A stretch of DNA of 64,000 nt from Chitinophaga pinensis (GTDB taxonomy: Bacteria; Bacteroidota; Bacteroidia; Chitinophagales; CAMDFR01). A program made the translations under genes and the position numbers. The notes below the pieces were generated by a model. It had not been told where the DNA came from. It was given only the letters and a program-made list of their open reading frames with translations, and searched no databases. Location: positions 1-64,000 of the forward strand of contig CAMART010000007.1 in the NCBI GenBank assembly GCA_945860705.1. Reading direction: 5' to 3'. Below are positions 20,693 through 60,626 of this stretch, piece by piece (position 1 is the stretch's first letter; every line of letters starts with the position of its first letter).

Positions 20693-22414
20693 ATGAAAAA
20701 AACACTGATATTAATATTAGTTTTGTCTAGTGCTGTATTCTTATTTGCTCAATCTACCTATGCACCACTAGGTTTTGAAACCTATGAATATATGGATAGA
20801 TTTGATATTAAATATGGTAAAATATTACCAGTTTTTCATACTGCTAATAAACCATATGATATGAAATTTATCGCTCATCATAATGAAGTGCTAAGAGCAT
20901 CCAATCTTACTTTGGGCAAAACAGATAAATTTAATTCAGATTATTTATTAAATGATAATAGTGAATGGTATGATTCTTTGAAAAGTATTAGTAAAAAACC
21001 ATTTCTAAGATATTTTTACAGAGAACCAGCAAATTTGTATTCTATAAGAACAAAAAAAGATGAATTTGTTTTACGAATAAATCCAATATTAGATTTAGGT
21101 ACTGGAACTGAATTTGGTAATAATATGCTTGTAAAAAATGGAAGAGGTATTTCATTGAGATTTAGCATTAAAAAAAGGATAAGTGTATATTTTATGGCTT
21201 ATACCAACCAACTATTAGTTCCTCAGTATATAGATTCTATGACTAGATCGAGTTTTCCCCAAGCGCATGTGCCTGGATTTGGATATTATAAAGAATATAC
21301 ACCTGCATTACTAAATCGTAATGGAAAAGTAAATAAAGGGATAGATTTTTTTGATTACAGAGGATATGTCACTTTTAATATTCTTAAACATATTGATGTC
21401 CAATTTGGACATGATAAAAATTTCATAGGTGATGGAGTTCGCTCCTTATTTTTGAGTGACAATAGCGCACCATATTTATTTCTAAAAATCAATACAAGAA
21501 TATGGAAAATCAACTATCAAAATCTTTTTACAGAGTTTCAAGGACAATATAAAAGAGGAGCAGATCAGTTGATAGATAAAAAATATGGAGCTTTTCATCA
21601 TTTGAGTATACAGCCAACACATTGGTTAAATATTGGTGTTTTTGAAGGTGTAATCATGAGTAGGAAAAAAGGATTTGATATTCAATATTTAAACCCGCTT
21701 ATTTTTTATAGATCTATAGAGCAGAGTTTGGGGTCGCCAGACAATTCATTAATTGGGGTTAATTTTAAAGCAAACTTTGTTAGACATGGGCAAGTTTATG
21801 GTCAGTTTGTATTAGATGAATTTCAGTTTGCAAAATTTAAAAATAAATGGTGGGGAAATAAATATGGAATACAACTAGGAGCGAAATATATAGATATTGG
21901 AGGTATTAAAAACCTAGATGCACAAATAGAATTTAATATGGTTAGACCCTATACATATACGCATTATAAAAATGGGGTAGCTTCATTAGCAAATTATTCT
22001 CATTACAATCAGCCTTTAGCACATCCTTTTGGGGCTAATTTTAGAGAATTTATTTTTGTAGCTAGATACCAACCAATTCCTAGACTTAATTTTACATTTA
22101 AATATCTTTATACGGCTATTGGATATGATACATCTGGTGTAAACTGGGGAGCAAATATATTTTTGCCAAATGACCCAAAAACTCAACCATTAGGAGGTGA
22201 ATTTGGATTTGGTAATAAAACTATTCAAGGGGTGAAAAATAGCTTTAGTATTGTTCACCTTTTAGCTACATATCAATTGAGACATAATGTTTTTTTTGAT
22301 TTTCAATTCAGTATAAGAGCTAGAAATAGTGTATTTGATGATGAAGATCATACAACACAATATTTTTATATAGGAGCTCGAGTAAATTTACCAAGAAGGA
22401 CTTACGATTTTTAG
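20693..22414 (+). CDS. outer-membrane beta-barrel protein, Wzi/RemB-like
   Basis: 573 residues with a Sec signal peptide (MKKTLILILVLSSAVFLFAQ). The rest is rich in alternating aromatic/polar strands (QLGAKYIDIGG, NFTFKYLYTAIGYD, FFDFQFSIRAR), ending in a strand with an aromatic last residue (RRTYDF), as expected of a barrel. Blocks such as DVQFGHDKNFIGDGVRSLFL (about 235-254) recall capsule-assembly Wzi-like proteins and the gliding protein RemB of Bacteroidota. The surface role is inferred. No polysaccharide genes are nearby, so a capsule link is not supported by context. Confidence 0.65.
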   Translation: MKKTLILILVLSSAVFLFAQSTYAPLGFETYEYMDRFDIKYGKILPVFHTANKPYDMKFIAHHNEVLRASNLTLGKTDKFNSDYLLNDNSEWYDSLKSISKKPFLRYFYREPANLYSIRTKKDEFVLRINPILDLGTGTEFGNNMLVKNGRGISLRFSIKKRISVYFMAYTNQLLVPQYIDSMTRSSFPQAHVPGFGYYKEYTPALLNRNGKVNKGIDFFDYRGYVTFNILKHIDVQFGHDKNFIGDGVRSLFLSDNSAPYLFLKINTRIWKINYQNLFTEFQGQYKRGADQLIDKKYGAFHHLSIQPTHWLNIGVFEGVIMSRKKGFDIQYLNPLIFYRSIEQSLGSPDNSLIGVNFKANFVRHGQVYGQFVLDEFQFAKFKNKWWGNKYGIQLGAKYIDIGGIKNLDAQIEFNMVRPYTYTHYKNGVASLANYSHYNQPLAHPFGANFREFIFVARYQPIPRLNFTFKYLYTAIGYDTSGVNWGANIFLPNDPKTQPLGGEFGFGNKTIQGVKNSFSIVHLLATYQLRHNVFFDFQFSIRARNSVFDDEDHTTQYFYIGARVNLPRRTYDF

Positions 22415-22664
22415 AATTTGCAATTAAATTTATTTCATTACTTATGTATATAATTTTATATTATTCAAATGAAATATTTAATTTAAATTTATAAATGTAC
22501 TTTATATATATGTTTTTAAAGTATCAAAATTGATAGATAAATTTAACAATATATTTAATTCTATAATATACATAGGTGTAGATAGGATTCACCTCTTATA
22601 AAATAGAGTAAAGACTCCGTCGAAACAATAGTAATCACATAGGATTTACAGGCAGAACAAATGA

Positions 22665-22811
22665 TTAGGAATTTTTTATCATGAAGATTTTTTGTTAAAG
22701 TCTGATGCTTTAAAAATAGAGAAAGAAATAAAATCATGGAAATCAAGAAGAAGGATAGAAGCATTACTACTACAAAAAATGGAAAATGGTTCGGAGCATC
22801 CCGACTCATAA
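22665..22811 (+). pseudogene. remnant of a GIY-YIG-type endonuclease gene
   Basis: The frame after a stop at 22662 reads IFYHEDFLLKSDALKIEKEI, then KSWKSRRRIEALLLQK, and ends NGSEHPDS before a stop. This is the C-terminal helix region of small GIY-YIG nucleases (UvrC N-domain family), which in Bacteroidota often end in GSEHPD followed by tRNA-like sequence. The N-terminal GIY-YIG half is not recoverable; the sequence before it has several stops. It is a dead copy. Apart from this remnant, its tRNA-like tail, a terminator and a promoter box, the gap 22415-23029 shows nothing I can name. Confidence 0.6.
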
Positions 22812-22862
22812 GTCGGGAGTGGTCATAGGTTCTCACACCAAGGCGTGACTATAACTCCCACT
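22788..22862 (+). other. tRNA-3'-like remnant interrupted by a palindrome
   Basis: After the nuclease remnant comes GGTTCGGAGCAT, then CCCGACTCATAAGTCGGG (7-bp stem, 4-nt loop, like an anticodon arm containing CAT), then GGTCATAGGTTC and finally CTATAACTCCCACTA. Together these look like the D-arm end, anticodon arm, T-arm and acceptor end of a tRNA. The T-loop is split by the 16-nt palindrome at 22833-22848, and no 5' half is present, so it cannot be a working tRNA. Confidence 0.5.
22833..22848. repeat. 16-nt palindromic repeat, copy 1
   Basis: TCACACCAAGGCGTGA, an imperfect palindrome (one mismatch in the 7-bp arms) with loop AA. It sits between GGTTC and CTAT, where the T-loop of the tRNA-like remnant should be. 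Related copies are at 42214 and 60601. Confidence 0.7.
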
Positions 22863-22870
22863 ACAAATAA

Positions 22871-22898
22871 AGGGTTTCAGCAATGAAGCCCTTTTTTT
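22871..22898 (+). terminator. Rho-independent terminator after the tRNA-like remnant
   Basis: AGGGTTTC pairs with GAAGCCCT (one G-T pair) over a 6-nt loop, followed by a run of T. It probably once ended the tRNA transcript and survives with the remnant. Confidence 0.75.
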
Positions 22899-23460: not shown

Positions 23461-24720
23461 TTGTTTATAGTATATCAATTTAGATTTGATTTATTTGAGC
23501 CATATGCTATTCTGAAAGAATATGGTTTGAGAAATAGTTATTTGAATTTACCAGTATTATCGATACTATTATTTTTGATGATGATATTAACATTTAGAAT
23601 TAATAATTTGAATGAAAATAAAATAGCTTACCAAAAAAAATATTTTGAAAAAATATTGAATTCTTTGCCATTTGATATCGTAGTAATCGATGCAAATTTT
23701 AAATACCAATTTATCAATAAACATGCAATAAAAGATGATAAAATAAGAGAATGGATAATAGGGAAAGATGATTATGAATTTATGAATCTAAAAGGAAAAG
23801 ATTCAAAATTAGCTGATGCTAGAAGGAGTTTATTAAAACAAGTTTTAGAATCTGGCAAGACAAGTCAGATGGAAGAGATTATTGAAGTAGAAAATGGTAA
23901 AAAATATTATTCAGATAAAATAATAATATCACTTAATGATAATGAATTAGGTGAAGCCATGAGATTTATAGGTTATTCAAAAGATACAACTAAAAAAAGA
24001 GAAGCAGAAATATTACTCAAACAATATATGCTAAAATTAGAAAAATCTAATGAAGAAATAAAACAGTTTGCATATGTAACTTCGCATGATTTAAAATCAC
24101 CACTAAGAAATATTTCTTCACTTTTACAATTAGCAAAAAAGAAGAATGAGCATATAATTACTGAAGACTCAAAAGAGTTGATAGATATATGTATTAAGTC
24201 TGCAAATAGTTTGTATAATATAGTAAATGATGTGCTTTTATATACAACTTCTGAAGTAGATATAGCTTCATTTAGTAAGATAGATGTGAACGAGGTAGTT
24301 TATGATGTATTAAATAATATCAATAGTTTCGTAGATGAAAATAATGCTCGTGTAAATGTAAAAAACAAACTTCCTTTTGTATTTTCTCATAAAACAATGA
24401 TTTTTAATTTATTTTTAAACCTTATTCAAAATGGTATCAAGTATAATAAATCAGAGGTGCCTCAAGTAGATATAGATTTTGTAGAAGATGATTTTAATTT
24501 TATATTTTCAATATCGGATAATGGAATAGGAATAGATGAAAAATATAAAGAGCAAATATTTGTAGTTTTTAAGAGACTCCACACTCAACAAAAATATGAA
24601 GGTACGGGTATAGGCTTGTCTATTTGCAAAAAAATAGTTGAAAACTTAAATGGAAAAATTTGGATAGATTCTACAGTAGGTGAAGGAAGTACCTTTTTTA
24701 TATCTTTACCAAAGGATTAG
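23461..24720 (+). CDS. sensor histidine kinase (PAS-HisKA-HATPase), C-terminal part of a frameshifted gene
   Basis: 419 codons from a TTG, but coding sequence in this frame begins at least at 23376. The order is remaining membrane helices (to about residue 55), a PAS domain (about 60-175; FDIVVIDANFKYQFINKHAI), a HisKA domain with the phospho-acceptor His in YVTSHDLKSPLRNISS (about 206), and a HATPase domain with the N box LFLNLIQNGIKYNKS, G1 ISDNGIGID and G2 GTGIGLSICKKIVE. A membrane-bound two-component sensor is clear; no response regulator is adjacent. Its last bases overlap the convergent hutI stop by 4 nt. Confidence 0.88.
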   Translation: MFIVYQFRFDLFEPYAILKEYGLRNSYLNLPVLSILLFLMMILTFRINNLNENKIAYQKKYFEKILNSLPFDIVVIDANFKYQFINKHAIKDDKIREWIIGKDDYEFMNLKGKDSKLADARRSLLKQVLESGKTSQMEEIIEVENGKKYYSDKIIISLNDNELGEAMRFIGYSKDTTKKREAEILLKQYMLKLEKSNEEIKQFAYVTSHDLKSPLRNISSLLQLAKKKNEHIITEDSKELIDICIKSANSLYNIVNDVLLYTTSEVDIASFSKIDVNEVVYDVLNNINSFVDENNARVNVKNKLPFVFSHKTMIFNLFLNLIQNGIKYNKSEVPQVDIDFVEDDFNFIFSISDNGIGIDEKYKEQIFVVFKRLHTQQKYEGTGIGLSICKKIVENLNGKIWIDSTVGEGSTFFISLPKD

Positions 24721-25952
24721 TTGTATATATTTCCATTTATATATACAGATTCAATACAGTTTTCTCCAAATGAATAAGGTATATAAGTAAGTGAAGGAAT
24801 TTCTTTAGTAATAATAAAATTTGCTAATTTATTTTTGGTAATACTGCCCAACTTATATTCGAGTTCCATAGCATGAGCTCCATTTATAGTCAGGGCATTT
24901 AATGCTTCATTAGGTCTCATTTTTAATTTTATACAAGCAAGTGAGAATAAAAAAGACATATTTCCGCTTGGTGTACTTCCAGGATTATAATCGCTTGCTA
25001 GAGCCACAGGTATATTATTCTCCATCAGCGCGCGTGCAGGAGCAAACGGAATACCTAAAAAGAATGAACATGAAGGCAATAAGGTAGCAATAGTATTGCT
25101 ATTCTTTAAGTTTGAAATAGCTTCATCATCCATACATTCTAAATGGTCTACAGATATTGCATTATTTTTAACACCTACTTGAACACCTCCAGAAATATTT
25201 AATTGATTGGCATGTATTTTTGGTTTTAAACCATTTTTTATTCCTGCCTGTAATATTCTATCAGTTTCTATAGTAGAGAAAAATCCATCTTCACAAAAAA
25301 CATCTATGTATTCAGCTAATTTTTCAGAAGCTATTTTTGGAATCATTTCATCTATTATTAACTTTATATATGCCTCATGATTATTTTTATACTGTTGAGG
25401 ATATGAATGAGCTCCTAAAAATGTAGCTTTTATGGGTATAGGAAATGCTTCATTAAGCCTTTTTATTACTCTCAGCATTTTTAATTCTGCTTCAGTACTT
25501 AATCCATAGCCACTTTTTATTTCTATTGCTCCAGTTCCTTGTTTTATCAATCTATGCAGTCTTTCTGATGCGCTTTGAAATAATTCTTCTTCACTAGTTT
25601 CATGTATTTTTCTAGCAGAATTTAATATACCTCCACCTGCATTGGCTATATCTTCATAACTTTTGCCTTCTATTTTCATCAAAAATTCTTCTTCTCTACT
25701 TTTCGCAAATACTATATGAGTATGCGAATCACACCAAGTAGGGAATATCATCTTTCCACTACAGTCTAAAATATTTTCAATGTCAGTAGGACATTCATCC
25801 ATTTTTCCATATGAATGTATCAGATTATGTTCTACTACTAAGTATGCATTTTCTATTTTAGGCATATAATTCATGTTTAAACCTTTGATTACATCTGTAT
25901 TAGCATCTCTAATTTGAAGCAATTCCTTAATATTTGTAAATAGAGTTTTCAT
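24717..25952 (-). CDS. hutI: imidazolonepropionase
   Basis: 411 residues, the third enzyme of histidine degradation (imidazolonepropionate to formiminoglutamate), amidohydrolase fold. Metal and substrate residues are in FPTWCDSHTHIVFAKSREEE (about 70), EIKSGYGLSTEAELK (about 150), KIHANQLNISGG (about 242), SVDHLECM (about 264) and ALASDYNPGSTP (about 313). No other hut gene is in the window. It is divergent from aroC, with 74 nt between. Confidence 0.94.
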   Translation of the reverse strand: MKTLFTNIKELLQIRDANTDVIKGLNMNYMPKIENAYLVVEHNLIHSYGKMDECPTDIENILDCSGKMIFPTWCDSHTHIVFAKSREEEFLMKIEGKSYEDIANAGGGILNSARKIHETSEEELFQSASERLHRLIKQGTGAIEIKSGYGLSTEAELKMLRVIKRLNEAFPIPIKATFLGAHSYPQQYKNNHEAYIKLIIDEMIPKIASEKLAEYIDVFCEDGFFSTIETDRILQAGIKNGLKPKIHANQLNISGGVQVGVKNNAISVDHLECMDDEAISNLKNSNTIATLLPSCSFFLGIPFAPARALMENNIPVALASDYNPGSTPSGNMSFLFSLACIKLKMRPNEALNALTINGAHAMELEYKLGSITKNKLANFIITKEIPSLTYIPYSFGENCIESVYINGNIYN

Positions 25953-60587: not shown

Positions 60588-60626
60588 GTTTCTGTAGCTC
60601 TCGCGCCAAGGCGTGAGGATAGAGCA
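60588..60626 (+). other. partial copy of the tRNA-Arg 5' half, interrupted by a palindrome
   Basis: GTTTCTGTAGCTC and GGATAGAGCA are identical to the first 13 nt and the D-arm end of the tRNA-Arg gene that starts 49 nt later. In the real tRNA these blocks are joined by AATT (the D-loop); here they are separated by the 16-nt palindrome 60601-60616. The copy ends before the anticodon. Confidence 0.75.
60601..60616. repeat. 16-nt palindromic repeat, copy 3
   Basis: TCGCGCCAAGGCGTGA, one mismatch in the 7-bp arms relative to the perfect copy at 42214. It occupies the D-loop position of the partial tRNA-Arg copy. Confidence 0.7.

Follow-up and report, generated by a model that had tools for sequence, protein, structure and literature searches.

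This locus raises the question of why sequence resembling the 3' half of a tRNA, with a short palindrome lodged in it, should lie at the end of a dead nuclease gene. The window, by which we mean the whole stretch of 64,000 nucleotides under analysis, had been the subject of a preliminary description that placed the palindrome in the T-loop position of such a fragment, downstream of the wreck of a GIY-YIG gene, and read the segment CCCGACTCATAAGTCGGG as its anticodon-like arm.

A damaged tRNA-Val copy and a nuclease remnant

The argument starts from the following features of the window.

22582..22665, + strand: N-terminal half of the GIY-YIG remnant, frame 2, containing a stop (tblastn against GIY-YIG proteins of relatives, 50% identity to L093)
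22671..22769, + strand: C-terminal half of the GIY-YIG remnant, frame 1 (E 3.3e-7 with a profile built from relatives; 51.5% identity to L093, L076 and L084)
22787..22798, + strand: tRNA-Val copy, 3' side of the D-arm, TGGTTCGGAGCA (92.9% identity to tRNA-Val over 22787-22800)
22799..22818, + strand: palindrome TCCCGACTCATAAGTCGGGA, replacing the anticodon arm (nt 27-43)
22821..22832, + strand: tRNA-Val copy, variable region and 5' side of the T-stem to C56, GGTCATAGGTTC (100% identity, 12 nt)
22833..22848, + strand: palindrome TCACACCAAGGCGTGA in the T-loop after C56, a 16-mer between GGTTC and CTAT
22849..22890, + strand: tRNA-Val copy, 3' acceptor end and terminator (92.9% identity over 42 nt to the 3' end and flank of tRNA-Val on contig C13)
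42214..42229, + strand: dispersed palindrome TCACGCCAAGGCGTGA, outside tRNA parts, with a 3-nt direct repeat (CAA) on each side
60588..60626, + strand: 5' copy of tRNA-Arg(acg) with a palindrome in the D-loop
60601..60616, + strand: palindrome TCGCGCCAAGGCGTGA, replacing AATT of the D-loop
60637..60711, + strand: intact tRNA-Arg(acg) (ARAGORN and Rfam)

Window 22787-22890 is the damaged 3' part of tRNA-Val(tac) followed by its terminator, with two arms altered. The parent tRNA that the preliminary description had supposed does exist: an intact tRNA-Val(tac) on another contig (C13:74358-74432, minus strand) matches every tRNA-like piece of the fragment, down to the terminator. The 16-mer is found between GGTTC and CTAT as reported, and five T-loop bases (GAATC) are missing at this second palindrome of the copy. 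The supposed anticodon arm CCCGACTCATAAGTCGGG, by contrast, is not tRNA, and a foreign palindrome stands in its place; the same replacement is seen in 3' tRNA-Met copies on contig C19 and in relatives. A genuine tRNA-Met fragment, suggested by CTCATAA in the anticodon-like loop, is ruled out because all other segments match tRNA-Val. The fragment folds better than shuffled sequences (-25.9 kcal/mol, z -2.57) but not into a cloverleaf, and the Rfam tRNA covariance model finds no match in it at the gathering cut-off or at E<=5, as expected because two arms are altered.

A search with the 16-mer at up to 3 mismatches returned five matches in the window on either strand against 0.08 expected, which amount to four places: 22833, 42214 (both strands), 60601 and 25729. 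The last of these, with 3 mismatches, was rejected as a repeat copy, being non-palindromic and inside the open reading frame 24717-25952. Two of the three real copies do lie in broken tRNA parts, 22833 in the T-loop of the Val copy and 60601 in the D-loop of the Arg copy, so that the proposed tie between palindrome and broken tRNAs is real, whereas the anticodon-like arm has to be given up. The palindrome that belongs to the element in the window is probably the one in the anticodon arm, and the one in the T-loop is probably an additional palindrome that came from a dispersed family.

The dead nuclease gene upstream (22582-22769) was also correctly recognized: it has lost its N-terminus and carries one stop and a change of frame. 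Small GIY-YIG genes of Bacteroidota run into tRNA-like tails, and the proteins of the units described here are chromosomal and about 75-100 aa long, with the Pfam GIY-YIG domain (PF01541) above cut-off in all five tested, from this genome or relatives. Y5, Y16, G18, R26, H30, E64 and K68 are invariant in 26 GIY-YIG proteins, and we take several of them to be the catalytic residues; the broken remnant in the window does not retain the catalytic set. A phage search with one member protein gave no match, and a plasmid search with one protein gave a single weak match.

A sister species and a further genome bear on how the remnant and its parent came to lie apart. In the sister species (G002), tRNA-Val is followed by a decayed copy, GTCACAGGTTC|TCACGCCAAGACG, with the palindrome type and the T-loop point of the window (GGTTC|TCACGCC), and the ortholog of window gene 20693-22414 is convergent with gene Y and a second gene, which from their proteins we take to be peptidase-family-like and hutH-like. 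In our genome, gene Y and the hutH-like gene adjoin the intact tRNA-Val on C13, and the nuclease remnant and tRNA copy stay in the window. The presumed hutH-like gene beside tRNA-Val (L068 882-2414) is kept by the sister species near the window's left gene, and window 24717-25952, which presumably encodes a hutI-like product, has remained where it was. In G003, tRNA-Val lies about 1.2 kb upstream of a homolog of window 24370-24714. A rearrangement probably took place between the terminator of tRNA-Val and the nuclease gene. Also beside the intact tRNA-Val, L068 (G000:C13:70000-78357) contains at 4753-6995 genes that resemble part of an integrative element.

The arrangement elsewhere in the genome and in relatives

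On contig C2 of the same genome, an intact GIY-YIG gene comes after tRNA-Phe, and behind it lies a 3' tRNA-Phe copy with terminator and TTCCGAAGCTTCGGAA in its T-loop; tRNA-Met and two tRNA-Arg loci have a comparable anatomy without a nuclease. Among 59 genomes from this order, 33 contain a homolog of the C2 nuclease. The merged set held 82 nuclease hits, two loci repeating L091 and L092 being excluded, and 62 were usable, having a length of at least 180 nt and flanks of 200 nt or more. For 40 of the 62 there was a same-strand tRNA no more than 200 nt away (32 upstream, 8 downstream), and in none was a tRNA solely on the opposite strand within that distance. No tRNA lay within 200 nt of the remaining 22, some of which are later members of tandem arrays; the others probably belong to a different subfamily. 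The same probably holds for the GIY-YIG gene of L009 (G000:C1:155244; 1486-1779), which is intact, has no adjoining tRNA and is followed by arrays of GTCATTGCGAG-type repeats.

Where a tRNA lay no more than 200 nt upstream (37 hits), a copy of it was sought downstream. Four of these hits were set aside, the second hit of L216 and that of L232 for lying at contig ends, and the second hit of L084 and that of L093 for having as upstream tRNA what is itself a broken copy. A partial copy of the same tRNA was present downstream in 30 of the 33 left, L088, L217 and L236 being those without. A foreign segment is present at one arm of each of these copies; partly as read by eye, it forms a perfect stem of at least 6 bp in 26 and, by the rule used, an imperfect one in L087, L092, L097 and L245. 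The copies are broken at the anticodon arm, the T-loop or the D-loop, and the points recur: the breakpoint C56|G57 in the T-loop is sharp in L092, L096, L097 and L245, nt 27-43 are replaced (26|44) in L077 and L219, and the right edge at 44 is shared by L076, L212 and L223. A mirror-image 5' type, in the order copy, nuclease, intact tRNA, occurs at L089, L220, L221, L224 and L226, and units of about 400 bp are repeated in tandem at L091 and L092. Beside the nuclease gene, a spare tRNA copy is altered at fixed loop points while the intact tRNA persists. This recurring pattern of nuclease, tRNA copy and palindrome is well supported. In the tRNA copies of L071, L073 and L215, palindromes are nested in or lie next to other palindromes, whether of their own type or of a different one.

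To follow the spread beyond the order we searched 84,980 species genomes with a DNA pattern for a tRNA with an overlong TCCCG..CGGGA anticodon arm; the pattern demands TCCCG, so its 111 stretches are silent on other palindromes. Of 80 examined, 67 were titled Bacteroidota, 12 came from other phyla (Neomarinimicrobiota, Desulfobacterales/Desulfobacteraceae, Patescibacteria groups, Ignavibacteria, Nitrospirae) and one was unassigned. Since the set includes isolates, for example Pontibacter sp. 172403-2 and Marinifilum breve, the TCCCG-arm arrangement is not an artefact of metagenome assembly. A GIY-YIG match lay within 1.5 kb at 35 of the 80 loci and none did at 45, many of these at the ends of the examined stretch; tandem arrays of tRNA copies, upstream or downstream of the tRNA, were common. 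In the open-access literature, searched by titles and the starts of abstracts, we found no paper on this arrangement of nuclease, palindrome and tRNA copy.

Palindrome families and the nuclease tree

Both palindromes of the window have kin across the genome. At up to 3 mismatches TCACGCCWWGGCGTGA occurs at 42 places (84 rows, each palindrome being counted on both strands) against one in the reversed control. With at most one mismatch there are 23 places, 20 of them dispersed; the other 3, at window 22833, window 60601 and C19:19167 (upstream of tRNA-Arg(tct)), occupy loops in partial copies of tRNAs. Both 5' tRNA-Arg copies, (acg) and (tct), carry a palindrome of the TCACGCCWWGGCGTGA type in the D-loop. 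The pattern TCCCGN{2,14}CGGGA is found at 36 places against none in the control; one is the anticodon palindrome of the window, two are in tandem 3' tRNA-Met copies on C19, where they replace the anticodon arm, and most others are TCCCGAANNTTCGGGA. Many dispersed palindromes (flanks of L002, L004, L047, L049 and L050 and similar sites) lie within short arrays of 7-12 nt words, including TTGAATG, TAGATAC and AATTAAG. At G000:C34:2275-2528 (L057 871-1124), GATGCTTC[TCACGCTATGGCGTGA]CAGCAT occurs three times in near-tandem, with longer arms around the palindrome core, and similar arms occur at L051, L053, L059 and L064. At L250 and L256 (about 1501-1516) a TCCCGAA palindrome lies within a longer dispersed repeat that looks structured (CCTGC[..]CGCTTGTATC...GCAGAGGATACCGC), and another such repeat is found in L252, L253, L255 and near L262/L263.

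The dispersed TCACGCC palindromes look mobile. Identical 3-mers flank them on both sides at 15 of 26 distinct sites (TTG/CAA, TAG, CTT; tRNA sites included), against a permuted mean of 3.15 with none of 2000 permutations as high, and at slid offsets the count was 0; we read these repeats as pointing to insertion that duplicates 3 nt of the target. The dispersed TCCCGAA family showed a 3-nt repeat in the same register at 0 of 13 sites and at a one-base offset at 5 of 13, and the palindromes in tRNA copies are without the 3-nt repeats of the dispersed sites.

Genome-wide counts of lineage palindromes in carriers and non-carriers of the nuclease cover TCCCG and TCCGCCA. The median ratio of TCCCG palindromes to control is 4.19 in 32 genomes with GIY-YIG and 1.11 in 26 without (p 2.2e-4), a comparison in which phylogeny is only partly controlled and the few palindromes within tRNA copies are counted too. 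The ratio is higher with GIY-YIG in 7 of the 8 families that have both states, and within the genus of the window carriers have 36 and 25 TCCCG places and non-carriers 2 and 8. A further family, TCCGCCANNTGGCGGA, has 10 places in G011, three of them in tRNA copies, and none in 14 other genomes including our own. Samples of 100 kb from each of four relatives were too small to reveal palindrome families.

The type of palindrome follows the nuclease. On a tree of 41 loci (77 columns, 15 of 38 inner branches starred), palindrome types, assigned by a simple rule after the data had been seen, need 7 changes, where the minimum is 5, the shuffled mean 19.0 and none of 200 shuffles as low. Three types each form one starred clade: CCNGCC, with 7 loci from 6 host families, TCCGCC and GCTGAC. 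Position class (anticodon, T or 5' type) needs 7 changes against 15.6 shuffled, isotype 14 against 24.7, and host family 25 against 29.1. Palindrome sequence, position and isotype follow the nuclease tree across host families, and host family does so much less. Over 661 pairs from different host families, nuclease identity correlates with shared palindrome 5-mers (r 0.283, 0 of 2000 permutations as high), and in G011, G026 and G038 different nuclease lineages within one genome keep different palindromes. The dispersed palindromes are cognate to the nuclease lineage in this sense of co-variation, as distinct from binding. Placed later, the remnant from the window falls with L219, L222 and L093 (a starred set of four rows, 95/81), nucleases of the Val, anticodon and TCCCG kind. 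L219 and L222 are found at tRNA-Val, and the anticodon arm contains TCCCG in each of the three loci, which is the window's own arrangement.

A probable minimal element at tRNA genes and its alternatives

Altogether these results make it likely that 22582-22890 is what remains of a tiny selfish element that consisted of a free-standing GIY-YIG gene with a palindrome and was lodged at tRNA-Val. Such units are best read as minimal GIY-YIG elements with a cognate palindrome that target tRNA genes, part homing endonuclease and part REP/RAYT-like. The original order would have been intact tRNA-Val, terminator, GIY-YIG gene, and a partial tRNA-Val copy with a palindrome for its anticodon arm, followed by a terminator. 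The nuclease gene would then have decayed, a second palindrome, of the TCACGCC family, would have invaded the copy's T-loop, and the intact tRNA-Val would have come to lie next to other genes through a rearrangement. We infer cutting and mobilisation by the nuclease: it would cut tRNA genes at the loop that bears the palindrome, and repair would duplicate tRNA sequence beside the cut. An intact tRNA would thereby be preserved, while the spare copy would keep the palindrome where it was broken. Most likely the palindrome marks the cut of the nuclease and travels with it, and as the cognate part of the element it could also be dispersed in the genome by a transposition-like process. Several observations speak against this explanation: the intact tRNA adjoining each element still holds the supposed target; several broken copies (Met and Arg in our genome, and the 45 of 80 pattern loci noted above) have no nuclease nearby; the 3-nt repeats are absent from palindromes in tRNA copies and, in the same register, from the TCCCGAA family; and 22 of the 62 usable nuclease hits have no tRNA within 200 nt. 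The assignment of palindrome types after the data had been seen is a further weakness.

The first of these points also weighs on classical homing, in which a free-standing GIY-YIG homing endonuclease sits beside tRNA genes and the palindrome, with no cognate role, merely destroys the target in the spare copy. We consider this unlikely, although it has a precedent in SegB, the GIY-YIG homing endonuclease of phage T6, which has the cleavage motif RAWTSGAAC, peaks of cleavage inside tRNA genes and a role in driving tandem amplification of a tRNA segment (PMC13096335). By our own comparison the reverse complement of the motif, GTTCSAWTY, corresponds to the tRNA T-arm, and the T-loop palindromes sit inside it; SegB counts in favour of the preferred explanation too. 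SegB (phages T4/T6) shares with the present units a free-standing GIY-YIG nuclease, adjacency to tRNAs, the T-arm motif and amplification of tRNA segments (PMC13096335), whereas the units here are chromosomal and pair a putatively cutting GIY-YIG protein of only some 75-100 aa with a palindrome-bearing partial tRNA copy. The fixed loop points of the palindrome in each nuclease lineage and the tandem units of L091 and L092 also fit homing, and physical linkage of gene and palindrome could still account for their co-variation. Target destruction alone, however, predicts neither that a palindrome is conserved within a nuclease lineage across tRNAs nor that the same palindrome is dispersed. A different mover is conceivable, a Y1 (RAYT) transposase that carries REP-like palindromes into exposed hairpin tips, with tRNA copies as tolerant targets and GIY-YIG as a bystander, and we judge it improbable. 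REP/RAYT (TnpA-REP) systems resemble the present units in that a single nuclease gene goes with each family of short dispersed palindromes, the two co-vary, and the palindrome families are genome-specific (compare PMC6006769); the units here differ in encoding GIY-YIG only and not the Y1/HuH transposase, in having palindromes in tRNA copies, and in the 3-nt direct repeats at dispersed TCACGCC sites. Y1_Tnp genes are present in 40 of 58 genomes, with 6 matches in our own, palindromes of the same type are dispersed in genomes, and the nested palindromes at L071 and L215 would fit. Flanks of dispersed sites form stems of at least 4 in 14 of 40 cases against 16.6% in the control, but at 5 or more the excess is unclear (5 of 40 against 5.1%), and a hairpin-tip insertion rule is only weakly supported by these counts. 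The palindrome type, moreover, tracks the GIY-YIG tree across host families, and the TCCCG excess follows GIY-YIG presence more than Y1 presence (2.93 against 1.00, p 0.012; 7 of 10 families); G056, G031 and G006 have 64, 42 and 21 TCCCG places, yet no Y1 match. RAYT as the sole mover of the palindromes is disfavoured.

Selection of the broken copies as RNA decoys or regulators, that is, as tRNA-like transcripts with a replaced anticodon arm, seems to us very improbable. Copies do retain a terminator or leader, the replacement of nt 27-43 is exact in several, and the Phe copy of G002 has TCCCGAAGCTTCGGGA where ours has TTCCGAAGCTTCGGAA, a paired change of T-A to C-G. However, copies are without one acceptor strand, are cut at differing points and decay freely (window, G002), the 5' and 3' types have only the palindrome in common, and conversion by a dispersed TCCCGAA copy would also yield the paired change. 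Least probable of all is an origin as displaced tRNA ends left by integrative elements, the palindromes being unrelated, although it could apply at single loci. The 3' ends of tRNAs are common att sites, integrative elements there keep the tRNA intact and leave a displaced part behind, as is seen here, and one gene beside the intact tRNA-Val on C13 (L068) is, by our reading of its sequence, presumably excisionase-like. The present units, in contrast, are about 400 bp long, have no integrase, hold a host terminator and come in both 5' and 3' types, with 5' copies upstream of the tRNA; displaced ends should also be free of palindromes, yet a foreign segment is present in every one of the 30 copies. 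Replacement of a stem-loop rather than its interruption is reportedly also the outcome of inverted-repeat-replacing transposition by IS1272, an insertion sequence that, unlike the units here, has a transposase and is not tied to tRNA genes.

Our preferred reading, of a small selfish GIY-YIG element at tRNA-Val, can be extended to a bolder proposal, which we offer tentatively: a single-domain GIY-YIG nuclease may recognise its own palindrome and one fixed arm of certain tRNA genes, swap the palindrome into that arm, duplicate enough of the tRNA for the cell to survive, and spread the 16-20 bp palindrome over the genome with short target duplications. This would be a new minimal class of mobile element, a GIY-YIG counterpart of RAYT/REP with essential tRNA genes as safe harbours. 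It predicts that the sequence of a nuclease alone tells the adjoining palindrome and tRNA arm, as it did in the one case of the window remnant. If true, it would account for the small GIY-YIG genes that adjoin tRNA genes and have tRNA-like tails in Bacteroidota, give an origin for the short dispersed palindromes of these genomes and show how the host survives when an element strikes essential tRNA genes. Palindromes of 16 bp moved by such a nuclease would, in our judgement, be among the smallest mobile DNA units known.
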